A program made the position numbers and the translations under genes. This document shows, one piece after another, positions 33,957 to 50,298 of a stretch of DNA of 64,000 nt; position 1 is the first letter of the stretch; the number at the start of each line of letters is the position of its first letter. The notes beneath the pieces were generated by a model, which ran no database searches, was not told where the DNA came from, and saw nothing but the letters and a program-made list of their open reading frames with translations. The stretch is from NCBI GenBank assembly GCA_030425925.1, contig JAUHZO010000005.1:1-64000 (forward strand), in the 5' to 3' direction. Source of the stretch: Alphaproteobacteria bacterium (lineage in GTDB: Bacteria; Pseudomonadota; Alphaproteobacteria; Rhodobacterales; Rhodobacteraceae).

Positions 33957-33974
33957 CGGATCGCGCCGGACGGG

Positions 33975-35219: not shown

Positions 35220-35270
35220 GGCTCTCTCCCGGCCTGAGCGGACAGCAGGGCGCATCCCCTACGAGATTGA

Positions 35271-35319
35271 TTGTATTTTAAGCCGCCCCTTCGTATATGA
35301 AAAGGGCAAGTTTTGTATT
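35271..35319. promoter_or_regulatory. Operator half-sites TTGTATT, TCGTATA, TTGTATT
   Basis: In the 115-base gap between the second Rieske operon and the VOC/ferredoxin genes, TTGTATT occurs at 35271 and 35313, exactly 42 bp (twice 21) apart, with TCGTATA at 35291 in between, one base off phase. Confidence 0.55.
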
Positions 35320-35334
35320 TTCCGCGGAGGCCAC

Positions 35335-35862
35335 GTGACAGCCCGCTTTGGCGAGATTGTGCAAATGGGGTACGTGGTGCCGGATCTGGACGCCGCGGTC
35401 GATCATTGGGCGACTGTCCTTGGCGTCGGCCCGTTCTTCGTTGCGTCGAAAGTGCCCTATGCCGAGGTCCACTATCGCGGACAGCCTTGCGACGCCGAGA
35501 TTTCGGTTGCCCTGGCCAGTCATCATGGCCTGCAGATCGAGATCATCCAGCAGATCGCCGGCGGGGCCTCGATGTTCCGTGACTTCATCGCCAGGACCGG
35601 TGGCGGGCTACATCACTTCTGCGCGCTGTGCGAGGATCTGGAGGCCGAGCTTGCGGCCTGGAGCGCCCGGGGCGTGCGCGTCGAAATGGGCGGCGTCACG
35701 ACCGCCGGTGTTCCGTTCGCCTATCTGGACACGGACCCGGACCAACAGGGGCGGGTGCTGGAGCTTGTTCAACCGTCGAAAGGGCTGTTGCGCTTTTTCG
35801 AAAAGATCGAAGCCGCCAGCGCGTCATGGGATGGCGCGACGGCCCGGATCGATCTGGGGTGA
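35335..35862 (+). CDS. VOC superfamily protein (second of two)
   Basis: A 175-residue vicinal-oxygen-chelate protein: GEIVQMGYVVPDLDAAVDHWA, GVGPFFVASKVPYAEVHYRGQP, HHFCALCEDLEAELAAW and a C-terminal SWDGATARIDLG. It is paralogous to the protein at 8934-9479. The GTG at 35335 follows GCGGAGG, so I use it in place of a longer in-frame extension that would start inside the divergent promoter. Members of the fold include epimerases, lyases and extradiol dioxygenases; the acyl-CoA context makes an epimerase or lyase plausible. Confidence 0.82.
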   Translation: MTARFGEIVQMGYVVPDLDAAVDHWATVLGVGPFFVASKVPYAEVHYRGQPCDAEISVALASHHGLQIEIIQQIAGGASMFRDFIARTGGGLHHFCALCEDLEAELAAWSARGVRVEMGGVTTAGVPFAYLDTDPDQQGRVLELVQPSKGLLRFFEKIEAASASWDGATARIDLG

Positions 35863-35936
35863 GGGGCGCAATCGGATTGTGTGCGCAAAGCGCGCCGTGA
35901 TAACGCAGAAAACGAACGGGAGCTGAGAACCAGACC

Positions 35937-36254
35937 ATGCCGAAGATTCATGCCGTCGATCGGAGCGGGGCGGAAAAGGTGATCGACGCGACAGCCGGCA
36001 TCTCTCTGATGCTGAACCTGCGCGACAATGGCGGCATGGACGTCGCCGCGATTTGCGGGGGCATGTGTTCCTGTGCGACCTGCCATGTCTATGTCGATGC
36101 CGACTGGATGCCGAAGCTTGACGACCAGTCCCCGGACGAATTCGAACTCATCGAGTTTTCCAAGCACTACAGGGACAATTCCCGCCTGTCCTGTCAGATC
36201 GAGATGTCGGATGCACTGGACGGCATCCGCGTGACCCTGGCACCGGAAGAGTAG
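35937..36254 (+). CDS. [2Fe-2S] ferredoxin, adrenodoxin/putidaredoxin type
   Basis: This 105-residue ferredoxin has Cys40, Cys46, Cys49 (ICGGMCSCATCHVYV) and Cys86 (RLSCQIEM), the plant/vertebrate-type loop of bacterial adrenodoxin-like proteins that feed cytochromes P450 or Rieske oxygenases. It lies about 75 bases after the VOC gene. The island thus has two electron carriers of different type (see the Rieske ferredoxin at 21792) for two oxygenases, but no reductase. The first codons (MPKIHAVDRSGAEK) match the family's N-terminal strand. Confidence 0.94.
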   Translation: MPKIHAVDRSGAEKVIDATAGISLMLNLRDNGGMDVAAICGGMCSCATCHVYVDADWMPKLDDQSPDEFELIEFSKHYRDNSRLSCQIEMSDALDGIRVTLAPEE

Positions 36255-36296
36255 GGACCGGATCGCCGGACGCCTCAATTGGTCCTGGACGAAGCC

Positions 36297-36325
36297 GACG
36301 CCGCGGATCGTTTTCCAGCGGCGTC
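36297..36325. terminator. Possible terminator between convergent genes
   Basis: GACGCCG (36297-36303) and CGGCGTC (36319-36325) form a 7-bp stem with a 15-base loop between the ferredoxin gene and the convergent ligase gene. There is no long T-run, so termination strength is uncertain. Confidence 0.35.
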
Positions 36326-37974
36326 TATCCTTCCTGCAGCGACCCCTCGGCCATTTCCCGAAGCTTGAACTTCTGGATTTTCGACGCTGACATCGGCCAT
36401 TCGGTCAAAAACCGCACGTCCCTTGGTACCTTGAAGCTTGCAATCTTGCCTTTGCAGAAGTCGATGATCTCGCCCGGCGTCGCCGTGGCACCCGGCTTCA
36501 ACTCCACAAAGGCCACGGGAACTTCCTGAAGCCTCGCGTCCGAACGGCCCACCACCTGGCACAGCTTGACCGCGTCATGTGTGCCGATCAGCGCCTCGAT
36601 TTCCAGGGCGGCGACGTTCTCTCCACCAACCTTCAGCATGTCCTTCAATCGCCCATGGAACATCAGGGTGCCTTCGGCGTCCAGTTCCCCAAGGTCCCCG
36701 GTGTGGAGCCAGCCATTCTTCTTGGCCTCGGCGGTTTTTTCCTCGTCCTTGTAATAGGCGGTGAGGATCGAAAAACCGCGCACGCAGATTTCACCGATTT
36801 CACCGGTCTCGCAGACTGTTCCGTCGGGGCGCCGGATTTCCAGTTCCAGACCGTCAAAGACCTTGCCAAGGCGGCGCGTCCGCGACTCGTAGCTGTCACC
36901 GGGAAGGCTTGTGGTGACGGTGCCCGACGTCTCTGTCATGCCGTAGGTCCCGACTTGAATGATATTCGGGATCTTTTCCTGAATGGCGTTCGCGAAACTC
37001 GCGGGTTGCATGGCCATGTTGGAGTTCATGATCCGGACAGAACCCAGGTCGCGTTTGTCGAAATCGGGGTGATAGATCATGTCGGCAATGAAGGTGCCGA
37101 AGCTGGGATATGTCACCGTCGCCCGCTCGCGTTCGATCTGTTCCAGCGCGATCCCGGCTTCGAAATATTGCATAGAAAGATAGGTGCCGCCGACCGAATA
37201 GGTCGCGCAAAGGGGGAACATCGCGCCGATATGGTACATCGGCAGGGGTGACCAGAACCTGTCGTCTTCCGTCATGGCATAGCGTTGCGCCATGGCTTGA
37301 CCGGTCCGCACAAGCGCCTCGTGCGAGATCATGCAACCTTTCGGATAAGACGTTGTGCCGGATGTATAAAGAAGCAGCGCGGTTTCAGAGACGCGCACAC
37401 GCGCCCGCAGTTTCGACACGTCAGCGCGGTCGACCTTGTCGGCCAGCGCAAAGAACGGGTCGCGCGATGTGAACCCCGGTGCGCGTTCGTCGTTGATCAG
37501 CACGAGACGCCGCAGCGTCGGCGCGCGGTCGAGCGTCAGGTCGGCATCCTCGGCATGTTCGGCGAGGGTTGGAAAGCTCTCGTTCAGCCGCGCGACAAAG
37601 TCGACGCCTTCGGCGATTTCTCCGCTTGTGATGACAACGGACAGGTCGGCGTTTTCCGTCAGATAGGTCAGTTCCCGCGTCCTGAACCGCGCGTTGATGG
37701 GCACCGACACGGCACCCAGCAGGGCGACGCCGAAAAACGCCTCTGCCGACTCGATGGAAGAGGGCAGGAGGATGCCGACATGATCACCGGGACGAACACC
37801 CAGGGCCCAGAGGCCGGACGCCATCCGCATCGCACCCTCCTGAAGTTCCGAAAAGCTGCGCTGTTGGTCCGGAAAGACCAGGGCCGGCTTGTCGGGGTGT
37901 TTCCTTGCCGCGTGCAGCAACAGGTCGCCCACTGTGGTCACGGCGATAAGATCCTGGAACTCAAGCATTTTCAT
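36325..37974 (-). CDS. AMP-forming acyl-CoA synthetase (ANL superfamily)
   Basis: A 549-residue ligase with LYTSGTTSYPKGCMISHE (P-loop; an unusual SY before PK), TYGMTETSG, HTGDLGELDAEGTLMFHGRLKDMLKVGGENVAALE and the catalytic Lys region MSASKIQKFKL. It is a paralogue of the ligase at 6464 (same GRLKDML.GGENVAALE hinge). It probably makes the CoA thioester of the growth substrate or of an acid released later. It is divergent from the TIM-barrel gene at 38209. Confidence 0.93.
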   Translation of the reverse strand: MKMLEFQDLIAVTTVGDLLLHAARKHPDKPALVFPDQQRSFSELQEGAMRMASGLWALGVRPGDHVGILLPSSIESAEAFFGVALLGAVSVPINARFRTRELTYLTENADLSVVITSGEIAEGVDFVARLNESFPTLAEHAEDADLTLDRAPTLRRLVLINDERAPGFTSRDPFFALADKVDRADVSKLRARVRVSETALLLYTSGTTSYPKGCMISHEALVRTGQAMAQRYAMTEDDRFWSPLPMYHIGAMFPLCATYSVGGTYLSMQYFEAGIALEQIERERATVTYPSFGTFIADMIYHPDFDKRDLGSVRIMNSNMAMQPASFANAIQEKIPNIIQVGTYGMTETSGTVTTSLPGDSYESRTRRLGKVFDGLELEIRRPDGTVCETGEIGEICVRGFSILTAYYKDEEKTAEAKKNGWLHTGDLGELDAEGTLMFHGRLKDMLKVGGENVAALEIEALIGTHDAVKLCQVVGRSDARLQEVPVAFVELKPGATATPGEIIDFCKGKIASFKVPRDVRFLTEWPMSASKIQKFKLREMAEGSLQEG

Positions 37975-38105
37975 CCTCCCGCCGTGAGCTCGTCACCCGG
38001 CGCACGCCCTTTTGGTGGACAGGCCAGCCCGCCACGTCGTCCGCGCCACCTGTGCAGCGCGCCTGTGCGCCCGGCCCGACTCATAGCATTTCCATTGTCG
38101 CTGTG

Positions 38106-38133
38106 TATACTTTCACGGACCGGAGATATACGC
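38106..38133. promoter_or_regulatory. Two operator half-sites 21 bp apart (TATACTT, TATACGC)
   Basis: TATAC cores begin at 38106 (within TGTGTATACTTTC) and 38127 (within GAGATATACGC), 21 bp apart, in the divergent gap between the ligase and the isomerase gene. Confidence 0.5.
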
Positions 38134-38208
38134 AAAGTCTCGCGCCCCGGGCGCGCCGACCGGGTCAGACACTGCAGACGCAGACCCTGAAGACAAGGAT
38201 GAGTTCCG

Positions 38209-39051
38209 ATGCCGCATCCATTGGCCCTGCACCACCTGTCACTGCGCGACATCGCGCCCCAAGACCTGCCGGGGATCGCGCGGGACGTCGGGCTGTCGCG
38301 CATTTCGGTCTTTGTGGCACCTCCGTCGGCAGACCTGGACATTTTTCCGCGTGTCAAACCGGGTCGAGGTCTCCTGGCCTTTACCGAGGCGTGCCGCGCG
38401 ACCGGTGTGTCGGTTCACAACATCGACGTGTTCTCTCTGGGGCCGGAGACGCGCATCGAGACATTCGCCGCGGCACTTGATCTGGGCGCAGAGATCGGCG
38501 CGGACCGCCTGACCGCCCTTGTGCAGGATCCGGACCTTGGGCGCGCGGCTGCAATTTCGGCCGAGCTTTCCGAGGCCGCGCAAAGCCGCGGGATAAAGGT
38601 GTCCATCGAGTTCATGAAGTTCTCGGCGCTGCGCTCGATCAGGGCCGGGGCCGACTTCGTGGCGAATGCCGGACATCCCAACCTGAGCCTGCTTGTGGAT
38701 CCGTTGCACCTGATGCGCACCGGTGGAACGATCTCTGACGTGCAGGCCATCGACCCGGCGTTCATCGGGGCCGCCCAGTTCTGTGACGGTCCGCTTTCGG
38801 CCCCCGCCAACGCTTTTGCCGAAGCCGTGGAGGACCGGGGCATTCCCGGCGAAGGTGCGTTTCCCCTGGCCGACTTCCTGGCGGCGCTGTCCGAAGACTG
38901 CCCTGTGGATATCGAAGTCCCCCTCAAACGGCTGGCGGAGGCCGGTCTGACACCCTTGGAGCGCGCGCAGCGATTGCTTGCCGCGACCATGACGTATTTC
39001 GACCCGGCAACCCGGGGCCAGACAGCCGCGAAGGTCGAACGCGGGCCTTGA
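38209..39051 (+). CDS. Sugar-phosphate isomerase/epimerase-like TIM-barrel protein
   Basis: This 280-residue protein belongs to the xylose-isomerase-like (AP endonuclease 2) TIM-barrel family. Metal-ligand positions appear at IEFM (Glu, end of one strand), LLVDPLHLMRTGG (Asp and His) and DIEVPLKR near the C-terminus. Members isomerise sugars or inositol intermediates or, in catabolic clusters, dehydrate dehydroshikimate or related ring acids. An isomerase acting on a ring-derived hydroxy-oxo acid would fit the island better than a sugar enzyme. It stands alone, convergent with the next ligase. Confidence 0.82.
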   Translation: MPHPLALHHLSLRDIAPQDLPGIARDVGLSRISVFVAPPSADLDIFPRVKPGRGLLAFTEACRATGVSVHNIDVFSLGPETRIETFAAALDLGAEIGADRLTALVQDPDLGRAAAISAELSEAAQSRGIKVSIEFMKFSALRSIRAGADFVANAGHPNLSLLVDPLHLMRTGGTISDVQAIDPAFIGAAQFCDGPLSAPANAFAEAVEDRGIPGEGAFPLADFLAALSEDCPVDIEVPLKRLAEAGLTPLERAQRLLAATMTYFDPATRGQTAAKVERGP

Positions 39052-39164
39052 AACAGGCCGCGGCGGTCAATACCCGCCGGTCGAAAACGGTTGGACCCGT
39101 CCCGCCAGCCTCTGTCCGTGAGACGCCGCCGGGCGCGCGTGCGGAGAAGGACCGTGGGGGCCCA

Positions 39165-40652
39165 TCAACCGGCCACCAGCGCCTCGACCTGTTCGCGCAG
39201 GATCTTGCCGGACACGTTTCTGGGCAGGTCTTCGATTGCAACAAACACAACCTCTCTGGGGCATTTGTACCCGGCGATCTCGGCCCGGCAGATCGCCAGC
39301 ACGTCGTCGGCCTGCAGGTCGGGCGTGTTGCGGGCGATCACCGCCACGGGCATCTCCCCCCAGTGCGCATCGGGTTTCTTGACCACGATGGCATCGGACA
39401 CGCGCGGGTCGGCCAGCAAGACCCGCTCGATTTCCGCGGGATACACGTTCTCGCCACCGGTCTTGATGAGGTACTTGGACCGACCGGCAAAGGCGTATCC
39501 CCGCGCGGTTTTCCTGAACATGTCCCCCATGTGGAACCAACCATCGGCAAAGTCCTTCGCGTTGGCCTCGGGATTGTTCCAGTAGCCCGAAAAAAGCGTC
39601 GGCCCGCGCACCCAGGCTTCTCCGGGGTCGCCGTCCTGCACGTCCTTGCCGTCCGGTCCGACAAGGCGAAGCTCGGTCAGGATGGACAGGCGCTTGGCCA
39701 GAACGTCACGGTCCTGCCCGGGGCGGATCAGATCGCCCGACAGGGGCGGCATCCCAGTTTCCGTCGCGCCGAATGAATTCAGGAAGGGCGCGTCGAGCAG
39801 GGTCGAGATCTCCTCGATTTCCGTGCGCGGGACCAGATCCGCCATGCATCCCACGGCCCGGACCGACTTGATGCCAGGCCGCCGTTCCCTGAGACGGGCG
39901 ACAAGCGGCGCGATCGTGGCGGGGACAAGCAGCAACCACCCGATGGGCTGCGCCTCAAGCGCGTCGATGATGGCGTCGGCGTCGAACCCGTCGATGACAA
40001 CGCCGGATGCGCCCGACATCAGGGTTGAAATCAAATGCTCGGTGCCGCCCATATGGAACATCGGTGCCCACGAGATGTAGCCATCGCCGGGTAGAATGCC
40101 CAGATCAAGCCGCAACGCCGACATGCGCGCGATCTGCGCGCGGTGGGAGATGACGGCGGCTTTCGGCAGGCCCGTGGTCCCGGAGGTGTAGATGATGAAC
40201 AGGCCGTCCTCGGGCTCGGCGACGCAGTCGGTGGCGCCGCCGGCGTCCAGCGTGTCGATGGCCGCGACGGGCGTTTCCCCCGCCGCCTCCGTTGCATAGG
40301 CATGGAACCGCTCGGACGCCACGACAAGGCTCGGTTCGATCAACCGGACGCAATAGGCGGCCTCTTTCGCGGCAAGCCGCCAGTTCTGGCAGGCGCAGAT
40401 GACGCCAAGCTTCGCCGCGGCGAGTTGCAGAACCGTGTACTCCACGCGGTTCTCCGAGATCACGGCAATGCGGTCGCCCCGGCCGATGCCGCGCGTGGCA
40501 AGGTCGGCCGCCACCCGGTCGACCTGTGCGATCAGCTGTGCATAGGTGTAAGACAGCACGCGACTTCGGACCGCCGGGGCGTCCGGCGACGCCTTGGCCC
40601 GCATGGCCACCAGCCGGTAGACGGTGGTCTGGGCGGCAACCTGCGGGGTCAT
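39165..40652 (-). CDS. AMP-forming acyl-CoA synthetase (third ligase)
   Basis: A 495-residue ANL ligase with IYTSGTTGLPKAAVISHRA, the SFGATETG adenine motif, WFHMGDMFRKTARGYAFAGRSKYLIKTGGENVYP (Asp retained in MGD) and the C-terminal catalytic Lys region NVSGKILRE. It differs clearly from the other two ligases of the island. The ATG ending at 40652 overlaps the upstream MaoC gene by 4 bases; the open frame extends further upstream but only through that gene. It is the last gene of a three-gene operon with two small hot-dog proteins, suggesting that the acid it activates goes straight into hydration. Confidence 0.93.
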   Translation of the reverse strand: MTPQVAAQTTVYRLVAMRAKASPDAPAVRSRVLSYTYAQLIAQVDRVAADLATRGIGRGDRIAVISENRVEYTVLQLAAAKLGVICACQNWRLAAKEAAYCVRLIEPSLVVASERFHAYATEAAGETPVAAIDTLDAGGATDCVAEPEDGLFIIYTSGTTGLPKAAVISHRAQIARMSALRLDLGILPGDGYISWAPMFHMGGTEHLISTLMSGASGVVIDGFDADAIIDALEAQPIGWLLLVPATIAPLVARLRERRPGIKSVRAVGCMADLVPRTEIEEISTLLDAPFLNSFGATETGMPPLSGDLIRPGQDRDVLAKRLSILTELRLVGPDGKDVQDGDPGEAWVRGPTLFSGYWNNPEANAKDFADGWFHMGDMFRKTARGYAFAGRSKYLIKTGGENVYPAEIERVLLADPRVSDAIVVKKPDAHWGEMPVAVIARNTPDLQADDVLAICRAEIAGYKCPREVVFVAIEDLPRNVSGKILREQVEALVAG

Positions 40653-40975
40653 GGCTTGAACGTGATGTGCGCGGACACAACCGGAGACCCGTCCCGGTCC
40701 AGCCGTCCCGCGCCATCCTCCAGACTGGCGTCCAGCGTGTCGCCTTCCAGAACATTGCCAAGAAAACGCGCGTCGATTTCCGTCACGGTCGCCTCCGCGT
40801 CCACCGGAAGACAGGACAGGACATAGGCCAGATTTGCGGGCCCCGGGTTCACGCGATTCGGGCCGAAGCCTGCGGCCTCTGCCGCGTCCCTGGACAGGTG
40901 GATCGCGTTGTCGTCGGCCAGGTATTCGCACCATTCCGCCATGTCCGGCCCCGAGATGTTCTTGAATTCCTTCAT
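40649..40975 (-). CDS. MaoC-like hot-dog protein, C-terminal half of a split hydratase
   Basis: A 108-residue single hot-dog domain: ISGPDMAEWCEYLADDNAIHLSRDAAEAAGFGPNRVNPGP has the Asp-x4-His hydratase signature (DDNAIH) of (R)-specific enoyl-CoA hydratases. With the next upstream gene (40980-41381, another hot-dog domain without that signature) it probably makes a heterodimer equivalent to a double hot-dog hydratase. The start (MKEFKNIS) ends at 40975 and its ribosome site (AGGATCC) is weak, so coupling to the upstream gene, 4 bases away, is likely. Confidence 0.82.
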   Translation of the reverse strand: MKEFKNISGPDMAEWCEYLADDNAIHLSRDAAEAAGFGPNRVNPGPANLAYVLSCLPVDAEATVTEIDARFLGNVLEGDTLDASLEDGAGRLDRDGSPVVSAHITFKP

Positions 40976-40979
40976 GTGT

Positions 40980-41381
40980 TCAGGATCCTGGAAAGATGAT
41001 GTGAAGTCGCGCCGCGCTATGGGGCGCTTCGGCACAGAGTTCGGCGGTCAAGTGCATGTGATCTGCGGACCCGTAGGTGCGGCTTGGCTTTCGTTCCAGG
41101 CTGTCGACGCGCGCCGTGACCGTGTAGGTCCGTTCGACCAGAAGCGGGCGCTCAAAGCTCAGCCGGCAGCGCGCAAGCACGGGCGCTTTCGAGAAATCAA
41201 GGCCAAGTGCCCCGGCCACGTCGATGATCTTCCATCCCATCCCGCCAAGCGCGCCGACAAAGGCGAATATGGGGAACGCGACGTCGCTTGCACGCGGGGC
41301 CGCCCGTGACAGGCTCCGCACCCGGTCGTCCAGCCGGGCGCTGAGGGCAAACTGCCCCGGCGGGATCTGTAATACGCTCAT
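40980..41381 (-). CDS. Hot-dog fold protein, probable non-catalytic half of a split MaoC hydratase
   Basis: This 133-residue protein is a MaoC N-terminal-like (FAS1-type dehydratase) domain: SDVAFPIFAFVGALGGMGWKIIDVAG near the middle, then the long beta-strands RLSFERPLLVERTYTVTARV and HLTAELCAE. It lacks the Asp-His hydratase pair. In two-gene hydratases the catalytic half is a second protein, here at 40649-40975. Its 5' end carries one of the operator half-sites (AATACGC at 41371) inside the first codons. Confidence 0.78.
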   Translation of the reverse strand: MSVLQIPPGQFALSARLDDRVRSLSRAAPRASDVAFPIFAFVGALGGMGWKIIDVAGALGLDFSKAPVLARCRLSFERPLLVERTYTVTARVDSLERKPSRTYGSADHMHLTAELCAEAPHSAARLHIIFPGS

Positions 41382-41419
41382 GGGATAATTGTATACGCGA
41401 CGCCCTGTGAAATATGCAA
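41371..41419. promoter_or_regulatory. Three operator half-sites spaced 21 bp (AATACGC, TATACGC, TATGCAA)
   Basis: Half-sites begin at 41371, 41392 (within ATTGTATACGC) and 41413, all 21 bp apart. The first overlaps codons 2-4 of the hot-dog gene, so the array spans its start and probable promoter. This is the rightmost copy of the island's operator that I found. Confidence 0.6.
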
Positions 41420-41950
41420 TGCCCTTGCGGTTCGCGGGGCGGTCGTCTCGAAGGAACCTCGCACAAGGCCGCCGAATGCGCCGGGTAGCCGTCGCTCGTG
41501 GCGAAACCCGGCCCGTTCCGCTGTGTCAAAACCAGCCGGAGGGCATTCGCCGGGAGGCGATGTTGCCCATCCCGGACCCGCCTTCGCCCGGGAACGTCAA
41601 GGTTCTGTCGTACGCGCAGGGTATCGGCGTCTGCCACGGAACTCTGAGCTTTCCGTTGCGCCGGACACGCAGTTCCAGCTTGGCCAAAGTTTGCTTCACA
41701 TGCAGTTCCGTACTCGGGGTGCCCGCGGAAAGCCCGAAAACACGTGGAAAACAATCAAGCAGCCCCCCGAAGGAAACAGCGGCCTTCAGACCTCCTGCCT
41801 TTCTCAAATCGAGAAAGCTGATCCCGGGAAAAGGTGGATTTATTCGCGAATTGGCGTGTGGCAACCTGACGCAAGCGAGGTGGCGCTGCCAAAATCGTTT
41901 CCGGCTTCGGCTGGCAACGGACCCGCAGCACATCCGGGAGGAGGTTCACC
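41420..41950. other. 530-base gap between the island and the AcnX operon, no gene recognised
   Basis: Several open frames cross this interval on both strands (for example one on the minus strand from 41933 to 41526 with NSRINPPFPGISFLDLR), but none has family resemblance, a ribosome site or a neighbour that would explain it. It must contain the AcnX operon promoter. GGGAGGAGGTTCACC just before 41951 is the ribosome site of the AcnX gene. The break coincides with the end of the operator network. Confidence 0.4.
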
Positions 41951-43225
41951 ATGCGTCTGACAGACGCCGAAAGGGCCATGCTTGACGGCGAACGAGGTGA
42001 CGCCTGTTCCCGCGCCATGGATCTCCTTGTCCGTTACGGCGAGGCCCTGGGGGCCGAATGCCTGATCGAGACGCGGAATGTTGCGGGCGCGTTCAACGCC
42101 TCGACCCCAAGCGTGCGGCACATGGCCGAAGACGGCTTTGACCGCGTCTTCAGCGAGCTGAACCTCGACAGCGACGACGTGGTCGAGATCCCGCACATGG
42201 CGGTGCCGACCTGCCAGCTGATCACCGGCATCGACACCGAGAATTACGCATTGCAGGGCGTCGACCCCGCGCTTGCCGAGATGCAGGTCGCGGGAGAGCG
42301 CTTTTTCGGCCGCCGCGGCATCAATATGATGTGCACCTGCACGCCTTATCAGGTGGGCAACGTGCCCGTGCGGGGGGAGCATCTGGCCTGGATGGAAAGC
42401 TCGGCGGTGATCTACGCCAATTCCGTTCTCGGCGCGCGGACGAATGTCGAGGGCAAGGAAAGCGCTGGTGCCGCCGGGCTGACCGGGCGGATCCCGTATT
42501 GGGGCCTGCACCTCGATGAAAACCGGTTTGCCGACCGCTTGATCGAGGTCGAGATCGACGTTGACGACATGGCCGACTGGGGGCTGCTGGGCTACTTCGT
42601 CGGCCATGCGGTCGAGGACGCCAAACCCGCGATTTCGGGCCTGGGCCATACGCCGACGCTTTGGAAACTCAAGCATTTTGGCGCGGCGGCAGCGTCCTCG
42701 GGCGGCGTGGAGCTGTTTCACATGCCCGGCATCACGCCGGAGGCCGAAACGCTGGACCACGCCTTTGGCGGGTCCGCGCGACCGCAGCCGATACGCTATG
42801 GTGCGAAGGAACGCATCGCAACCTGGGAAAGCCTCCAGTCGGCGCAGGACCGCAAGGTGGATTTCATCATGCTGGGGTGCCCGCACAATTCGATCGAGCA
42901 GATGGCCGAGGTGGCGCAGCGGCTCGACGGCAAGCGGATACATCCCGACGTCGCGCTCTGGGTCCACACGCCACGGGCCATCGCCGAGGTGGCCCGGCGT
43001 TCGGGCTACACCGAGATCATCGAGGCCGCCGGCGGCGTCGTGATGTCGGATACCTGCCCCGCGATCTCGCGCCGTCTGCCGGAAGGTGTGCGGGTGATCG
43101 CAACCGACAGTGCAAAGCAGGCGCATTACCTGCCCGCCATCTCCAGCCGGCAAGGCTGGTTCGGGTCGCTGGCGCAGTGCGTCGACGCCGCCGTCACGGG
43201 CACGTGGACAGGGGGGCCGACATGA
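41951..43225 (+). CDS. Aconitase X large subunit (dehydratase, DUF521 family)
   Basis: A 424-residue AcnX catalytic subunit. The Fe-S or iron-binding Cys appear as Cys128 (MMCTCTPYQ), Cys310 (MLGCPHNS) and Cys369 (SDTCPAIS). Known AcnX enzymes are the archaeal mevalonate 5-phosphate dehydratase and bacterial cis-3-hydroxy-L-proline dehydratase. The bacterial setting favours a dehydratase of a small hydroxy acid. It has a good ribosome site (GGGAGGAGG, 41936-41944) and shares ATGA with the small subunit gene. It leads an operon with a TAXI-TRAP importer, FAD oxidoreductase and TfdA-like dioxygenase. Confidence 0.9.
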   Translation: MRLTDAERAMLDGERGDACSRAMDLLVRYGEALGAECLIETRNVAGAFNASTPSVRHMAEDGFDRVFSELNLDSDDVVEIPHMAVPTCQLITGIDTENYALQGVDPALAEMQVAGERFFGRRGINMMCTCTPYQVGNVPVRGEHLAWMESSAVIYANSVLGARTNVEGKESAGAAGLTGRIPYWGLHLDENRFADRLIEVEIDVDDMADWGLLGYFVGHAVEDAKPAISGLGHTPTLWKLKHFGAAAASSGGVELFHMPGITPEAETLDHAFGGSARPQPIRYGAKERIATWESLQSAQDRKVDFIMLGCPHNSIEQMAEVAQRLDGKRIHPDVALWVHTPRAIAEVARRSGYTEIIEAAGGVVMSDTCPAISRRLPEGVRVIATDSAKQAHYLPAISSRQGWFGSLAQCVDAAVTGTWTGGPT

Positions 43226-43659
43226 CCGACACCGCCGAAAAGGCGAACACCATCGTGCTGCGCGGACGGGGCATCGTTCCCGGCAAGGCCACGGCCGAGG
43301 CGCTGACCACGCGGCAGACGATTTCCGGCTGGGGCGGCATCAACGAACGCGAAGGCACGGTGATCGAGCTGCGCCACGAGCTGCGCGGGCAGAGTTTCGC
43401 GGGCAAGGTGCTGGTGTTTCCCGGCGCCAAGGGCTCGTCCGGCTGGTCCGCGTATTGGCACATGCTGCGCCTCAACGGCACCGCGCCGGCGGCGATGATC
43501 TTTACCCGGATGTCTACCAAGATTGCGCTGGGCGCGGTGGTCAGCCGGGTCCCGACGATCACCGAGCTCGACCGCGACCCGTTCGAGGTGATCGAAACCG
43601 GCGACCTGGTGGAGGTCGACGCCGACGCAGGCACCGTGACCGTGACGAAACCGGGCTGA
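43222..43659 (+). CDS. Aconitase X small (swivelling) subunit
   Basis: A 145-residue AcnX small subunit (DUF126 family): GIVPGKATAEALTTRQTISGWGGINEREG, then FPGAKGSSGWSAYWHMLRLNGTAPAAMI, the GxKGS(S) segment closing the active site over the substrate. It starts in the stop codon of the large subunit (ATGA), as in other two-gene AcnX enzymes, while some bacteria have a fused version. It is needed for the dehydratase to work. Confidence 0.9.
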   Translation: MTDTAEKANTIVLRGRGIVPGKATAEALTTRQTISGWGGINEREGTVIELRHELRGQSFAGKVLVFPGAKGSSGWSAYWHMLRLNGTAPAAMIFTRMSTKIALGAVVSRVPTITELDRDPFEVIETGDLVEVDADAGTVTVTKPG

Positions 43660-43740
43660 GATGCCCCAACCCCAGCAGGCCGGGACAACTGGCCGCGCAA
43701 CCGAATGATGGACAACCGCACTTCCAGGGAGGAATTCAAG

Positions 43741-44937
43741 ATGCTGAAACAAAGCTGGTCTATCCTGACGGGCCTCGCCGTCGCTGCCGGGCTTGCCGTC
43801 GCGCCGGCCCAGGCGCAGGACTATGAATGGCCCGATTTCTTCACCGTGATCACGCCGATCGTCGGCACCGCCAACCACTCGCTCGGCGTCGCCTGGACCA
43901 GCGAGTTCAGCGCCCAGACCCAAAGCCGCGCCCGCGTGCTGCCGGCGCCGAACGGCTACTCGCGTGCCCAGTGGCTGGCCACCGGCGAAGGCGACATCGC
44001 CATGCTGCAGGCGTCCGACTATTTCGACCAGATGGACGCGGTCGAGGGCTTTGCCGTCGACGCGGGCGGACCGACCGACACCCGGGTCGCCGTGATGAAC
44101 ATGGTCACCCCCTGGAGCTACATCGTCCGCGGTGACAGCGACATCCAGAGCTTCACGGATATTGGTGCCGGCACAAGGGTGGCGTTGGCCTCGTCCTCGA
44201 GTTTCCTCATGTCGGGCGTCGATGCCCTGCTGGCCTATAACGGGCTGACCCGCGACGATGTCGAGATCGTCGAGGTTGGCAATTACGGTGCCAACACCAA
44301 GGTCGTGACCGAGGGCCGGGCCGATGTCGCCTTTACCTCGCCGCTTTCGGGCACCAGCTACGAGGCGGAGGCGAACCCGAACGGGATCCGCTGGCTCGCT
44401 CTGCCGCGGCGCGATGCCGATCCCGAGGCATTCGATCGTTACCGGGCGATTATGTCCGGCTATGTGCCCGCCAGCACGGTGTCCGGTGTCGAGACGGCGC
44501 TTGGTCTTTACATGGACCACGCCTATCAGGCGAACCACGTGCGCGCCGATGCCGATCCGGACTTTGTCTACAACCTGCAGAAATGGCTCGACGAACATTA
44601 CGAGGATTTCAAGGACGACTTCACCCATGCGCCGATGATGTCGATCGCCAGCATGGTGTCCTTCCTCGACGCCGGGCACCTGCAGCCGCTGCACGAAGGC
44701 ACGATCAAGTACCTGTCCGAGCAGGGCCTCTGGAAAGACGCCTACCAGGCGCGGCAGGACAAGCTGGTCGCGCTCGCCGGGGACCGCGTGGCCCTCTATA
44801 ACGCGGCGATGGAGGCGGCCAAGGCCGACGGCATCGACATCTCGCCCGAAAACGAGGCGTGGCACGCCTTCTGGGACGACTACAAGGCCGCGAACGGTGT
44901 CACCATGAGCTACGGCGAAATGGTGATGGCCGACTGA
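43741..44937 (+). CDS. TAXI-family TRAP transporter substrate-binding protein
   Basis: This 398-residue periplasmic protein has a Sec signal (LTGLAVAAGLAVAPAQAQ, cleavage near residue 23) and the TAXI fold: FTVITPIVGTANHSLGVAWTSEF, then IGAGTRVALASSSSFLM and ALPRRDADPEAFDRY. TAXI-TRAP proteins bind amino acids or small organic acids. The start at 43741 follows AGGGAGGAATT; upstream in-frame Met codons are leader. It lies between the AcnX genes and the fused permease, so it probably supplies the AcnX substrate. Confidence 0.9.
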   Translation: MLKQSWSILTGLAVAAGLAVAPAQAQDYEWPDFFTVITPIVGTANHSLGVAWTSEFSAQTQSRARVLPAPNGYSRAQWLATGEGDIAMLQASDYFDQMDAVEGFAVDAGGPTDTRVAVMNMVTPWSYIVRGDSDIQSFTDIGAGTRVALASSSSFLMSGVDALLAYNGLTRDDVEIVEVGNYGANTKVVTEGRADVAFTSPLSGTSYEAEANPNGIRWLALPRRDADPEAFDRYRAIMSGYVPASTVSGVETALGLYMDHAYQANHVRADADPDFVYNLQKWLDEHYEDFKDDFTHAPMMSIASMVSFLDAGHLQPLHEGTIKYLSEQGLWKDAYQARQDKLVALAGDRVALYNAAMEAAKADGIDISPENEAWHAFWDDYKAANGVTMSYGEMVMAD

Positions 44938-44948
44938 GCCACAGCGCT

Positions 44949-44975
44949 CCCCGGCCGCGCCACGGTCGGCCGGGG
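44949..44975 (+). terminator. Stem-loop after the TAXI binding-protein gene
   Basis: CCCCGGCCG (44949-44957) pairs with CGGCCGGGG (44967-44975) around a 9-base loop, 11 bases past the stop. As in the other SBP-permease gaps of this window, no T-run follows, which suggests mRNA stabilisation or partial termination ahead of the permease. Confidence 0.55.
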
Positions 44976-45094
44976 GGCCATGCACTTCGCAGAAGCATGC
45001 GCGCCGGAGGTCGATGAAACCCGGCTCTCCCGCGACAAGGCCGCCGCCCGGGACTTGTCCCGGCGACCCGGCGCAGACGCAAGGATCCGCCCCG

Positions 45095-47071
45095 ATGGCC
45101 GAGACCCGATCAGAGATCCACGCCACCGCCGACGCCGGTGACGCGCGCGTGCCCGAGGCGTATCTCGACCGCACGCTCGAGCGTTATCACACGCTGCCGG
45201 CGCCGATGCGCTGGTACCTGCTGGCCTCGTCGGCGGCAGGTGTCGCGCTGGCCGTTATGTACATCTTTGCGCTCGTGCCGCTTCTGGACCTGACCTATTA
45301 CTTCCTGCTGATGGCCTGCTACCTGCCGGCGGTCTTTCTGCTGCTGCCCGCCTATCCCGGCGAACACCGGGCGGGCTGGGCCAGCTATCTGCCCGCCGCC
45401 GGCATCCTGTTTCTGACGCTTTTCATGGCGTACCACTCGCGCAGCCTCATCTTCGGCACCTGGATCCCCGTGCGCGAGACCTGGCAACTGGTGACAGCCG
45501 CCGCGATCTTTGTCCTTGTGCTGGAGGCGGCGCGGCGCTCGGGCGGTTACATCTTCCTCGTCATCGTCGCCTTCCTGGCGCTTTACCCGGTCTTCGCCAT
45601 CCACATGCCGGGCATCCTGTGGGGGCCACCCACGACCCTGTCGCGCACGATCGCCTTCAACGTGTTTTCCGGAGACGCAATGCTGGGCGTCGTCACCCGG
45701 GTCGTGGCAGAGACGATCATCGGCTTTCTGGTCCTCGCCGCGCTCATGGTCGCCACCGGGGCGGCGGATTTCTTCCTCAAGCTCGCGCTCGGCCTGATGG
45801 GCACGGCACGGGGCGGACCGGCCAAGGTCAGCGTGCTGGCCAGCGGCTTCTTCGGCTCGCTTTCGGGGTCGATCTTCGGCAACGTGGTCTCGACGGGATC
45901 GGTCACCATCCCCTCGATGAAGCGCTCGGGCTTTCCGGGCCACTATGCCGGGGCGCTCGAGGCCTGTGCCTCGACCGGTGGCATGCTGATGCCCCCCGTC
46001 ATGGGCGCGGTCGCCTTCATCATGGCGGATTTCACCAACACCGAATACCGGGTGATCGTGCTCGCAGCGCTGATCCCTTCGGTGCTCTACTATTTCGGGC
46101 TCTACTGCCATGTCGACGGCTTCGCGGCCCGCAACGACCTCAAGGGGCTGCCCCGCGCCGAATTGCCGAAGGTGCGCGAGACGCTCAAGGAGGGCTGGCC
46201 CTTTCTTGTCGTTCTTGGCTTTCTCGTCTGGGGCCTCGTCTTCATGCGCTGGGAGCGGCTGACGCCGTTCTACGCCTCGGCTCTGCTGATCGCGCTGACC
46301 TTCCTCAGCCCGAAACTGCGGCTGAAGCTGAAGACGATCCCCGAGATCCTCTTCCAGATATCAAAGCTGCTTTCGCAGACCATGGGCCTCTTGCTGCCGA
46401 CAAGCTTCATCCTGGGCGGGCTGATGGCCACCGGGGTCGCGCCGGTCGTCGCGGCAAGCCTGGTGCGCATGGGCGGCGATGCGATCGTCCCGGTGCTCGC
46501 CATCGGGATCGGTGTGTGCATCATCTTCGGCATGCTCGGCATGATCGTTGCCGCCTACCTGATGCTGGCGCTGACACTGGCCCCGGCCCTGGAACAGATC
46601 GCCGGGCTCAATACCGTCGCGATCCACCTGTTCATCGCCTATTACGCGTCGCTTGCGGCGATCACGCCGCCGGTGGCGCTGGCGGCCTTCCTTGCCTCGC
46701 GGATCAGCGATTCACCCCCGATCAAGACGTCATTGCACGCCGCGAGGTTGGGGATCGTGCTCTACTTCGTGCCGATCTTCTTCCTGTTCGAACCGGCGCT
46801 GATCCTGCAAGGGCCGTTCGCCCTGACAGTGCTCTGGACCGCCATGAACGTGGTGGCCATCATCGTCATCGCCGCCGCGTCCGAAGGCCAGTTCTGGTAC
46901 TTCGGCAAGCTCAGCGTCTGGAGCCGAGCGATCCTCTTCATTGCCGGGCTGTTCATCGGGTTTCCGGAATGGGTCAGCACGGTTGCCGGACTTGCCGTGG
47001 TTGCCGCGACGCTGGCGATCCCCGGCGCTGCGCGGCACGCCGTCCCCTTGTCCTCCGAGGCACGCGAATGA
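45095..47071 (+). CDS. TRAP transporter fused permease subunit (DctQ-DctM type)
   Basis: A 658-residue membrane protein with an N-terminal DctQ-like four-helix part (LASSAAGVALAVMYIFALVPLL onward, to about 200) fused to a DctM-like domain: GFFGSLSGSIFGNVVSTGSVTIPSM, LEACASTGGMLMPPVMGAVAFIMADF and ASLAAITPPVALAAFLAS. Fused permeases are the rule for TAXI-type TRAP systems. The start MAETRSEIH (45095) follows CAAGGATCC; a longer in-frame extension lies in the hairpin region. It imports what the TAXI protein binds, probably using a sodium gradient. Confidence 0.93.
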   Translation: MAETRSEIHATADAGDARVPEAYLDRTLERYHTLPAPMRWYLLASSAAGVALAVMYIFALVPLLDLTYYFLLMACYLPAVFLLLPAYPGEHRAGWASYLPAAGILFLTLFMAYHSRSLIFGTWIPVRETWQLVTAAAIFVLVLEAARRSGGYIFLVIVAFLALYPVFAIHMPGILWGPPTTLSRTIAFNVFSGDAMLGVVTRVVAETIIGFLVLAALMVATGAADFFLKLALGLMGTARGGPAKVSVLASGFFGSLSGSIFGNVVSTGSVTIPSMKRSGFPGHYAGALEACASTGGMLMPPVMGAVAFIMADFTNTEYRVIVLAALIPSVLYYFGLYCHVDGFAARNDLKGLPRAELPKVRETLKEGWPFLVVLGFLVWGLVFMRWERLTPFYASALLIALTFLSPKLRLKLKTIPEILFQISKLLSQTMGLLLPTSFILGGLMATGVAPVVAASLVRMGGDAIVPVLAIGIGVCIIFGMLGMIVAAYLMLALTLAPALEQIAGLNTVAIHLFIAYYASLAAITPPVALAAFLASRISDSPPIKTSLHAARLGIVLYFVPIFFLFEPALILQGPFALTVLWTAMNVVAIIVIAAASEGQFWYFGKLSVWSRAILFIAGLFIGFPEWVSTVAGLAVVAATLAIPGAARHAVPLSSEARE

Positions 47072-47125
47072 TCCGCCGTCCGTCGCCAACCCGATCCCCC
47101 AAGTAGATCCAAGGAGACCGCCGCC

Positions 47126-48442
47126 ATGTCGCACGGCCGCCCGATCAATCCCGACACGACCATCGTGCGCCATTCCGGCGACGTCCTGCACCGCGCACTT
47201 GACGTGGACCTGTGCGTCATCGGTGCCGGCATCTCGGGCACCACTACGGCGCTCGAGGCCGCGCGCCTTGGCAAGACGGTCGCCATTGCCGACAGCCTGC
47301 CCGCGCTGGGCGGTCAGGCGGTCAACTCGATCATCGGCACGTTCTGCGGGCTTTACCGGAACGGCACCCACGGGCACCGGCTGACCTTTGGCATCGTCGA
47401 CGAGATGCTGGCCTATCTGGAACGGCATGACGCGTGTTACTACCGCCACGGCCCGACGACGACCGTGGTGCATTACAACGAGATCGCGCTGTCCCGCTGG
47501 GTGGAAACCGCGCTTGACGCCGCCGGGGTGATCCCTGTCACCGGCGCGATCCTGCGGAGCGTCGAGACCGAAGGCCGCCGCGTCAACGCCGCACGGCTGG
47601 TGACCCGCTACGGCGATGTCACCATCCGGGCCGAGGGCTTTGCCGACTGCTCGGGCGACGCCGCGCTCACCTATCTGGCCGGCTACGCGTGCCGCGAGCC
47701 GGATGAAAAGGTCTATGGCTCGCAACAGGCCGTGGTCGAGGGCATCAACCTCGACGCCGAACCGCCGCAGCGCGAGGAGCTTGCCGCGCGCATCGCCGAA
47801 AAGGCCGAGGCCTACGGGCTGATCCGCAAGAACGGCCTCATGTTCTACTTCCCCGGCAAGGAGGTTGCGGTGATGAACATGACCCATGTGGAAACGCCGC
47901 TCGACCCGTTGGAGGCCTCGAAAACGTCGGCAATCGGCAAGGACCAGGTGGATCGTGGCGTACGGCTCTTGCGCGACGAATTTCCGCAGGTTTTCGGCAA
48001 CATCAAGGTCCGCAGCTACGGCTTCCCCGGCATCCGCCAGACCCGCTGGATCAAGGCCAAGCACCATCTCGTGGTGGACGAGGTTGTGAACCAGGTCAAG
48101 TTCGACGACGCCATCGGCCGCACCTCATGGCCGATCGAGTTGCACAACGCGCCCGAGGGCTTTGTCTGGGAGGTCTTTGACGAGGACCACGTGCACTACA
48201 TCCCGTTCTCGGCAATGATCTCGCCCGAGGCGGACAACCTTGTTGCCGTGGGCCGCTGCATCGACGGCGACCCGGCGGCGCTCAGCTCGGTCCGCGTGAT
48301 GGGCCCCTGCATGGCGCAGGGCATGGCAGCCGCGAACGCGCTTGACCTCGCGGGCGCGGGCTCGGTGCATCAGATCGATATCGGCATGTTGCAGGCGCGG
48401 GTCTCCGACAATCTGAACCGCAGCGATGGCGTTGCCCCCTGA
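47126..48442 (+). CDS. FAD-dependent oxidoreductase
   Basis: This 438-residue flavoprotein has a dinucleotide-binding motif DLCVIGAGISGTTTALEAARLGKTV near the N-terminus (28-52), then SLPALGGQAVNSIIGTFCG (72-90), DCSGDAALTYLAGY in the middle and the FAD-contacting DNLVAVGRCIDGDPAA near the C-terminus. It belongs to the FAD_oxidored (PF12831-like) group of dehydrogenases and hydratases. Start at 47126 follows AAGGAGACC. Within this operon it may oxidise a hydroxy or amino acid before or after AcnX; the exact reaction is unknown. Confidence 0.88.
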   Translation: MSHGRPINPDTTIVRHSGDVLHRALDVDLCVIGAGISGTTTALEAARLGKTVAIADSLPALGGQAVNSIIGTFCGLYRNGTHGHRLTFGIVDEMLAYLERHDACYYRHGPTTTVVHYNEIALSRWVETALDAAGVIPVTGAILRSVETEGRRVNAARLVTRYGDVTIRAEGFADCSGDAALTYLAGYACREPDEKVYGSQQAVVEGINLDAEPPQREELAARIAEKAEAYGLIRKNGLMFYFPGKEVAVMNMTHVETPLDPLEASKTSAIGKDQVDRGVRLLRDEFPQVFGNIKVRSYGFPGIRQTRWIKAKHHLVVDEVVNQVKFDDAIGRTSWPIELHNAPEGFVWEVFDEDHVHYIPFSAMISPEADNLVAVGRCIDGDPAALSSVRVMGPCMAQGMAAANALDLAGAGSVHQIDIGMLQARVSDNLNRSDGVAP

Positions 48443-48459
48443 CAGGAGGAAGAAGAGAG

Positions 48460-49344
48460 ATGATTGCGACAAAACCCCTGGACGGCGCCTTTGGCGTTGA
48501 AATCACCGGCGGGATCGACGTGCTGGCGCCGCTCGACCCCGCACAGGTGCAGGAAATCGACCGGCTGATGGACGAGCATTCGCTGATCGTGATCCGGAAC
48601 CAGCCGATGGACGTGGACCAGCAGCTTGCCTGGACCCGGCAGTTCGGTCCGCTCGACATCGGCTTCAAGAAGGTGATCTCGAAAGGCGGCGCGCCGCAGA
48701 AATACGACGAGGTTGGCGACATTTCGAACCTTTCGACGGACGGTACCGTCGCCAAGCGCACCGACAAGCGGATCCTCAACAACGTGGCGAACCAGCTCTG
48801 GCACTCGGATTCGTCCTTCCAGATGCCGGCTGCGAAATACTCCATGCTGCACTCGGTGCAGAACCCGTCCTGGGGCGGCGAGACCGAGTTTGCGGACATG
48901 AAGGCGGCCTATGACGCGCTGCCGGACCGCATGAAAAGCTTTGTCGACGACAAGGTTGCCGAGCACTTCGCCGTGCATTCGCGTTTCCTGCTTGGTGACG
49001 ACAGCTACACGCCCGAGCAGGTCGCCGCGATCCCGCCGGCGCATTGGCCGATCGTGCGGGAAAACCCGCGCACCGGACGCCGGCACCTTTTCATCGGGGT
49101 ACATGCAAGGTCCATCGAGGGTCTGACGGTGCCCGAGGGCCGGATGATCCTGCTGGATCTGCTGGAGCATGCGACGCAGCCACAGTTCCGCTATCTGCAT
49201 CACTGGCAGGTCGGCGACACCGTGATCTGGGACAATCGCGCCACGTTGCACCGCGGCCGGCACTACGATTTCGACGAACCGCGCGAGTTGCGCCGCACCA
49301 CGACGCTTGACGACCAGGCCCCCGAGTTGAAAAGGGCCGGCTGA
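48460..49344 (+). CDS. TauD/TfdA-type Fe(II)/2-oxoglutarate dioxygenase
   Basis: A 294-residue member of the TfdA/TauD family. Iron ligands are His115-x-Asp117 (LWHSDSSF) and His264 (TLHRGRHYD); an Arg in RELRRTT binds 2-oxoglutarate. The domain ends in RTTTLDDQAPELKRAG. Family members hydroxylate or cleave ethers, sulfonates (taurine) and the herbicide 2,4-D. It is the last gene of the AcnX operon, 17 bases after the flavoprotein gene, preceded by GGAGGAAGAAGAGAG. A hydroxylation feeding AcnX dehydration is one possibility. Confidence 0.93.
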   Translation: MIATKPLDGAFGVEITGGIDVLAPLDPAQVQEIDRLMDEHSLIVIRNQPMDVDQQLAWTRQFGPLDIGFKKVISKGGAPQKYDEVGDISNLSTDGTVAKRTDKRILNNVANQLWHSDSSFQMPAAKYSMLHSVQNPSWGGETEFADMKAAYDALPDRMKSFVDDKVAEHFAVHSRFLLGDDSYTPEQVAAIPPAHWPIVRENPRTGRRHLFIGVHARSIEGLTVPEGRMILLDLLEHATQPQFRYLHHWQVGDTVIWDNRATLHRGRHYDFDEPRELRRTTTLDDQAPELKRAG

Positions 49345-49398: not shown

Positions 49399-50298
49399 CT
49401 ATCTGTTCCAGGGCGGATCGGTGAATTCCGTCTTGAGGTGCTCCAGCAGGGCCGCGACCTCGGGCCTGTGCGCCTTGTTGCGCGGCACCATGGCCTTGAA
49501 CCAGAGCGGAGAGATCGGGAAGTCCTCCAGCAGGGCGACCAGCCGCCCTTTGGCCAGTTCCTCGCGGACAAGGAAACTGGGCACGACCGTGATGCCCAGG
49601 GCTTCCGCTGCCGCCGCCACCAGAAGCCGGCTGTCGTTCACCGTGAACGTCGCATGCACGTCCACCCGGACAGGGCCCTGTTCGCTCTCGAATGACCAGG
49701 TCAGCCCGACCGGCACAAAGGCAAGGCATTTGTGCTGCACCAGTTCCGACGGGGCCGTCGGCGTCCCGGCACGCTCCAGGTAGTCCGGTGCGGCGACCAG
49801 CACGCGCTGATACGGGCAAAGCGGTGTTTCGATCACGCTGGCATAGCTTTGCGGCAATGCCCCAAGAGCGATGTCGAGCCCCTCTTCGAGCGGGTTCACG
49901 GAACGGTCGATCAGTTGCAATTCGGTCGTGATGGAGGGATTTGCCGCCTGAAACCGCGCAATCGACTGCCCGACAAAGAGGGTGCCCAGCGTGGTGGGGG
50001 CCTTGACTCGCAGATGCCCGTGCAGCCCGCGCTCCGGAGGGTGCGCGCCCGACAGCGCGTCTTCCAATTCGGATATCAGGAGGTGCAACCGCGGACGCAG
50101 CCGCTCGGCCTCGGTCGTGAGCGTGAGGCGCCGGGTGGACCTGACGAACAGCCGAGAGCCGATTTCGGCTTCGAGCCGCCCGACCCGCTTTGTCACGACC
50201 GACGGTGCAACGCCGATGTCACGGGCCGCAGCCGAGAAGCTTCCCGCCCGGGCGGTGGCAAGAAAGGCTTCGATGTCGATGAGCTGCATCACGGGCAC
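49399..50298 (-). CDS. LysR family transcriptional regulator
   Basis: A 299-residue LysR protein: N-terminal winged helix (LIDIEAFLATARAGSFSAAARDIGVAPSVVTKRVGRLEAEIGSRLF, about residues 6-51) and a C-terminal two-lobed effector domain (LRVKAPTTLGTLFVGQSIARFQAAN on, with VQHKCLAFVPVGLTWSFE and TVVPSFLVREELAKGRLV). It resembles CrgA/AbgR-like regulators with a single conserved start, MPVMQLIDIE; a second Met three codons on is also possible. It converges on the AcnX operon and does not diverge from it, so its target is not obvious. Confidence 0.93.
   Translation of the reverse strand: MPVMQLIDIEAFLATARAGSFSAAARDIGVAPSVVTKRVGRLEAEIGSRLFVRSTRRLTLTTEAERLRPRLHLLISELEDALSGAHPPERGLHGHLRVKAPTTLGTLFVGQSIARFQAANPSITTELQLIDRSVNPLEEGLDIALGALPQSYASVIETPLCPYQRVLVAAPDYLERAGTPTAPSELVQHKCLAFVPVGLTWSFESEQGPVRVDVHATFTVNDSRLLVAAAAEALGITVVPSFLVREELAKGRLVALLEDFPISPLWFKAMVPRNKAHRPEVAALLEHLKTEFTDPPWNR

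Follow-up and report, generated by a model that had tools for sequence, protein, structure and literature searches.

We analysed a 64,000-nucleotide stretch of a Rhodobacteraceae genome (Alphaproteobacteria bacterium, assembly GCA_030425925.1, contig JAUHZO010000005.1, positions 1 to 64,000; hereafter the window), which carries at 41951-49344, on the plus strand, a six-gene set built around a dehydratase of the AcnX family. A preliminary description of this DNA had outlined one operon of AcnX large and small subunits, TAXI binding protein, fused permease, FAD (flavin adenine dinucleotide) oxidoreductase and Fe/2-oxoglutarate dioxygenase. That operon is present and intact where it had been placed, with all genes complete and collinear, and every one of the family assignments was upheld by profile matches. 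The features are as follows:

41382..41950, divergent intergenic region 5' of AcnX, the presumed operon promoter site, judged from gene layout
41951..43225, plus strand, AcnX large subunit, 424 residues (PF04412, 404 bits, E 8e-121, whole model covered)
43222..43659, plus strand, AcnX small (swivel) subunit, 145 residues (PF01989, AcnX_swivel, E 2e-25)
43741..44937, plus strand, alternative start 43705, TAXI-type TRAP solute-binding protein (TIGR02122, 100 bits against a cut-off of 84, E 1e-28)
45014..47071, plus strand, fused TRAP permease, 685 residues (TIGR02123, 457 bits against a cut-off of 321, E 1e-136; PF06808)
47126..48442, plus strand, PF12831 FAD-dependent oxidoreductase (FAD_oxidored, 227 bits, E 5e-67)
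48460..49344, plus strand, TfdA-clade Fe(II)/2-oxoglutarate dioxygenase, 294 residues (PF02668, TauD, E 2e-60)
49399..50298, minus strand, LysR-type regulator, convergent to the operon (PF03466 and PF00126)

The two AcnX reading frames overlap by 4 bp (ATGA), and the subsequent gaps are approximately 81, 76, 54 and 17 bp. The binding protein and the fused DctQM permease both exceed their curated cut-offs, which makes the importer a member of the TAXI-TRAP family. Chance juxtaposition of these genes is excluded, since unrelated genomes carry the same set. To place the set among its relatives we scanned 84,980 species genomes, which yielded 299 AcnX relatives; the best 80 loci were kept and are the basis of all per-locus counts given here. 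They span alpha-, beta- and gammaproteobacteria, Actinomycetota and Bacillota.

AcnX residues were placed by alignment to solved structures, the large subunit against 7cnr and 7cnp and the small subunit against 2hi6, 7cnr_B and 7cnp. The pair has full catalytic (PF04412) and swivel (PF01989) domains, the swivel serine, the cluster cysteines and the complete Glu/Ser/Lys/Tyr set. Cys130, Cys310 and Cys369 of the large subunit correspond to Cys110, Cys283 and Cys342 of TkAcnX and are predicted [4Fe-4S] ligands; together with the other chemistry residues, Glu149, Ser150, Lys389 and Tyr393, they are invariant in 80 of 80 AcnX loci. In the small subunit, the catalytic Ser72 (79 of 79 relatives), Gly74 (78/79) and Trp or Tyr at position 75 (79/79) form a subfamily motif, GSSG(W/Y), and Trp37 is kept. 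The alignments show a heterodimeric hydro-lyase with a three-cysteine set of the [4Fe-4S] type and with the full complement of residues for abstraction of the C2 proton and expulsion of the C3 hydroxyl from a 3-hydroxy carboxylate.

The window enzyme differs from both AcnX enzymes that have been characterised. It has the fold, the catalytic Ser, Glu, Ser, Lys and Tyr, and two of the three cluster cysteines in common with the cis-3-hydroxy-L-proline (C3LHyp) dehydratase (7CNP), whose Trp35 aligns with window Trp37. However, it is a heterodimer, is only approximately 34% identical, has no hydroxyproline genes nearby, and has its third cysteine, Cys310, at the Tk Cys283 position with none at the At Cys510 position of the hydroxyproline enzyme. 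Furthermore, Asp203, Thr72 and Ile206 of that enzyme are replaced by Ala (Ala45), Gly (Gly74) and Phe. Asp203 and Thr72 bind the proline nitrogen in the characterised dehydratase (PMC8184944); none of the 80 AcnX relatives has Asp at position 45, which is occupied by Ala, Cys or Ser. TkAcnX (7CNR), a type IIb mevalonate 5-phosphate (MVA5P) dehydratase, resembles the window enzyme in its separate large and small subunits and its three cysteines, and the large subunits are approximately 38% identical. The window pair, unlike TkAcnX, lies in a bacterial catabolic operon, has extra residues before its first cysteine, and does not conserve the phosphate-binding Ser50, Asn53 and Asn79, although the pairing of Asn79 is uncertain owing to an insertion. 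The comparison of active sites proposed in the preliminary description therefore finds the landmarks of the hydroxyproline and mevalonate-phosphate types both missing. Bacterial subclasses IIc-IIf lack the landmarks of either characterised enzyme and have no known function (PMC8184944). The window AcnX is a bacterial heterodimer without C3LHyp or MVA5P landmark residues, and its sequence fits these type-II subclasses without assigned function, taken as a group.

We then asked which genes accompany AcnX. Of the 80 loci, 64 have a PF12831 flavoenzyme (50-87% identity) in the vicinity of AcnX, and in 55 of those 64 it directly adjoins the AcnX pair. Other partners are a LysR regulator (43/80), an IlvD/EDD dehydratase (31/80), TAXI (18/80), a TauD/TfdA dioxygenase (18/80) and the fused permease (16/80). 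The window's own family was represented by 394 genomes; seven of them encode AcnX, and it is the identical seven that encode the flavoenzyme, with two copies of each in one (G152). Some AcnX loci that lack the usual flavoenzyme have a different PF12831 flavoenzyme adjoining AcnX. The dedicated partner of AcnX is thus a PF12831 flavoenzyme and not the dioxygenase. In four betaproteobacterial loci (L063, L078, L080 and L081), such a different flavoenzyme and an IclR regulator replace the usual flavoenzyme and LysR. One contig of Mesobacterium pallidum carries two complete AcnX-flavoenzyme copies approximately 32 kb apart (L010 and L034), which belong to different kinds, TAXI/TfdA in one case and IlvD in the other.

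The window flavoenzyme matches the PF12831 family over its whole length, and its AlphaFold2 model (predicted local distance difference test 87.5) has the FAD-oxidoreductase fold. Beyond the Rossmann region it has no characterised sequence relative in the PDB. Assigning its reaction from the fold failed: structural matches at 10-16% identity fall alike on reductases, monooxygenases, halogenases and amine oxidases, and because they cover so many kinds of FAD enzyme they say nothing about the reaction.

The IlvD component is not in the window, but it is in the genome. Contig C10 encodes a 59% identical ortholog of the AcnX-linked IlvD, while the other IlvD paralogs reach 32-36%. Of the 394 family genomes, 5 of the 7 with AcnX and 3 of the remaining 387 carry the linked IlvD ortholog (Fisher p 1.5e-8). 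The linked protein is of full length and, by PF00920 and PF24877, belongs to the superfamily that includes dihydroxyacid dehydratase and L-arabinonate dehydratase; it scores under the curated IlvD and sugar-acid equivalog cut-offs (535 versus 644 and 397 versus 882 bits), which sets it apart as a separate subfamily. Its neighbours on C10 include a second PF12831 flavoenzyme, 66% identical to one that adjoins AcnX in betaproteobacteria, as well as a LysR (53% identity), a DctP (53%) and an amidohydrolase (44%); the same locus (L101, 37500-57000) also encodes a GFA protein, an MFS permease and DctQ. In genome G046, amidohydrolases, a GFA protein, an MFS permease, IlvD, flavoenzyme, AcnX, DctPQM and LysR form one cluster. 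Since the C10 set occurs there together with AcnX, the pathway is probably split across two loci in the window's genome. IlvD orthologs without AcnX (L108, L109 and L110; 52-54% identity) also directly adjoin a PF12831 flavoenzyme, which suggests a wider IlvD-flavoenzyme partnership beyond AcnX loci.

The dioxygenase shares 54.6% identity with the TfdA of pJP4 and 57.7% with that of pDB1. TfdA is the dioxygenase that degrades the weed-killer 2,4-D (2,4-dichlorophenoxyacetate). The window protein has the HxD...H iron triad (His115 and Asp117 in HSD, and His264), and it is near-identical to plasmid TfdA proteins (pJP4 and pEST4011; 53-58% identity) in the metal motif regions QLWHSDSSFQ and LHRGR. 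In a maximum-likelihood tree it falls in a TfdA clade of 36 members (support 100/99), of which 29 are AcnX-linked, four are TfdA proteins from plasmids and three are unlinked; TfdA-like proteins of bradyrhizobia and others branch outside. By this phylogeny it is a member of the TfdA clade and not a generic TauD. It differs from plasmid TfdA in being chromosomal, in an AcnX-flavoenzyme operon and without chlorocatechol genes, and its likeness to TfdA is known from sequence. The AcnX-linked rows of the tree are partly biased, as those loci were collected via AcnX. To correct for this we searched 299 Burkholderiaceae genomes with pJP4 TfdA as the query, and the ten closest matches were at 60-65% identity; nine of the ten lie in AcnX-flavoenzyme operons, in the order IlvD-MFS-TfdA-AcnX-FAD-MFS, and one lies outside.

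The tree places plasmid TfdA and the AcnX-linked dioxygenases in a shared clade, with which descent from an AcnX-linked ancestor and a sister-group relationship are both compatible. Strict nesting of plasmid TfdA among the AcnX-linked proteins, as the best tree suggests, was not retained: an approximately unbiased test does not reject a single AcnX-linked clade (p 0.40). Co-recruitment of TfdK with TfdA from an AcnX operon was likewise dropped, with AAHS permeases of AcnX operons at 38-43% identity to TfdK over their length and other plasmid AAHS permeases at 41-42%. Three items go beyond the preliminary account: the flavoenzyme as fixed partner, the IlvD component encoded elsewhere in the genome, and the TfdA-clade position of the dioxygenase.

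Altogether, these data show a recurrent set of AcnX and its dedicated flavoenzyme, very often with IlvD and in some genomes with a TfdA-clade dioxygenase. We propose that the window operon probably serves to break down a 3-hydroxy or 2,3-dihydroxy carboxylate that is not an amine. The TAXI-TRAP importer would take up the carboxylate, AcnX and IlvD would handle the 3-hydroxy and the 2,3-dihydroxy acid of one pathway, and the flavoenzyme would oxidise or reduce the same carbon skeleton. The TfdA-type enzyme would cleave a C2 ether oxidatively, or otherwise oxidise C2, and so could feed one class of substituted acids into the AcnX pathway. AcnX and IlvD alike act on a carboxylate by removing the proton at C2 and expelling the hydroxyl at C3; the point of attack of TfdA is the carbon that adjoins the carboxylate and bears the ether oxygen. 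Combining these chemistries leaves a single class that would fit all three: carboxylates that carry a 3-hydroxy or 2,3-dihydroxy pattern and bear an ether or aryl group at C2 or C3. The leading candidate, though a weak one, is an aryl- or alkoxy-substituted acid of this kind, for example a C6-C3 acid derived from plants or lignin. On this working hypothesis, Trp37 and Trp75 near the catalytic serine and the loss of the Asp that binds the amine would accord with a substrate that is hydrophobic and not an amine.

Several observations weigh against this proposal. Genomes are the unit of the co-occurrence statistics, and as the cluster is mobile, the events are non-independent. The importers of AcnX loci vary (TAXI, DctPQM, TctC, ABC and AAHS), which may mean several substrates. 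The idea of an aryl substrate places two residues by alignment and not in the protein's own structure, and distant relatives of IlvD, the flavoenzyme and TfdA occur in sugar-acid as well as aromatic contexts. We found no reported assay for any enzyme of these AcnX, flavoenzyme and IlvD subfamilies, whose substrates are unreported.

The main rival is a pathway for a sugar acid, aldonic or aldaric, which we consider unlikely. IlvD and AcnX would dehydrate different stereoisomers to 2-keto-3-deoxy acids, the flavoenzyme would oxidise a hydroxyl and the dioxygenase would remove an O-substituent. IlvD/EDD enzymes do act on 2,3-dihydroxy acids, and a polyol-type dehydrogenase is found near rhizobial AcnX loci. 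Furthermore, AcnX-less IlvD-flavoenzyme relatives occur among sugar ABC transporters, FAH hydrolases, lactonases and mandelate-racemase-type dehydratases, and TfdA relatives at 48-54% identity adjoin MR/MLE sugar-acid dehydratases, HpcH aldolase and D-2-hydroxyacid dehydrogenases. However, the homologs found in these contexts are more distant ones; no aldolase or keto-deoxy acid kinase is consistently present at AcnX loci, and the aromatic residues by the AcnX catalytic serine would suit a hydrophobic group better than a polyol.

The dioxygenase could instead be functionally separate, for example in phenoxy acid detoxification, and merely co-transcribed with the AcnX pathway. It is missing from 62 of 80 AcnX loci, and unlinked members of the TfdA clade exist (L156, L165 and L113). 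We nevertheless regard this as improbable: the gene is part of the operon, either internally or at its end, in alpha-, beta- and gammaproteobacteria, and since it is retained in three classes despite differing gene orders and transporters, the link to AcnX would be old or selected repeatedly.

More doubtful still is the version put forward in the preliminary description, in which the hydroxy acid for AcnX would arise from a precursor through hydroxylation by the dioxygenase. The two are co-operonic in the window and in 18 of 80 loci. As a general rule this did not hold up, with the dioxygenase in those 18 loci against 64 for the flavoenzyme and 31 for IlvD. The majority of AcnX-flavoenzyme operons are without it, so AcnX normally works without a dioxygenase. 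The known activity of TfdA-clade enzymes is ether cleavage, which is not a lasting installation of a 3-hydroxyl.

A role in hydroxyproline degradation is very unlikely. AcnX belongs to the same family as the C3LHyp dehydratase, and its top NCBIfam match is the model of that enzyme. However, the large subunit scores 266 bits against a cut-off of 700 and the small subunit 72 bits, with the two chains scored separately on a fused-type model, and the Asp203 and Thr72 equivalents are missing throughout the subfamily. The preliminary description had remarked on a missing pyrroline-2-carboxylate reductase and argued for a substrate other than cis-3-hydroxy-L-proline. There is indeed no such reductase in the operon, nor in the rest of the genome at curated cut-offs, and a profile search of the genome found no PF02615 or PF05544 protein. 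Its PF02423 matches are an ornithine cyclodeaminase, a EutC-like cyclodeaminase and paralogs well under the reductase cut-offs; a weak one on contig C12 is nearest the pyrroline-2-carboxylate reductase models but reaches 130 bits against 266. The other-substrate argument is supported by the changes to Ala45 and Gly74 and by the usual hydroxyproline genes missing from the genome. A phosphomevalonate dehydratase of the archaeal-type mevalonate pathway is hardly credible: the heterodimeric layout and three cysteines are the same and TkAcnX is the large subunit's top PDB match, but the TkAcnX phosphate-binding stretch Gly48-Val49-Ser50, with Asn53 and Asn79, is lost (PMC8184944), and a patchy, importer-linked operon is ill-suited to isoprenoid biosynthesis.

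Returning to the proposed carboxylate pathway, it is possible, but we say so tentatively, that AcnX, flavoenzyme and IlvD make up a hitherto undescribed route by which substituted 3-hydroxy or 2,3-dihydroxy carboxylates are processed, and that plasmid TfdA was recruited from among its dioxygenases. We found no description in the literature on AcnX with TRAP, on DUF521/DUF126 or on the gene combination. If true, the recruitment would give TfdA a natural substrate class and an ancestral gene context, and the AcnX operon may show the natural source of the 2,4-D herbicide enzyme. TfdA, the best-known herbicide dioxygenase, is placed in a family whose sampled chromosomal members mostly occupy AcnX operons, which makes its origin and natural role a directly testable question. 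One AcnX subfamily without assigned function gains a fixed partner in the PF12831 flavoenzyme, a third component in IlvD and a diagnostic active-site signature, and a hunt for its substrate becomes possible with defined proteins.

Upstream of the operon, at 32305-41381 on the minus strand, lies a separate set of aromatic/acyl-CoA type, with a Rieske ring-hydroxylating oxygenase, an enoyl-CoA hydratase, a short-chain dehydrogenase/reductase, two acyl-CoA ligases and two MaoC-like or small hot-dog-like proteins. We considered whether its MaoC-like genes, its two CoA ligases and its Rieske oxygenase belong to the system and rejected this, as the genes tested occur in 0 of 80 AcnX loci; the CoA ligases, the MaoC-like proteins and an apurinic/apyrimidinic-endonuclease-type protein have no AcnX linkage elsewhere among these loci. 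PF04909 amidohydrolases, often two, and a small Rieske ferredoxin recur near AcnX (L049, L050, L062, L103 and others). The C10 locus also contains a homogentisate-dioxygenase-like stretch of approximately 279 residues (L101:7887-8726), perhaps a fragment, as judged by eye.

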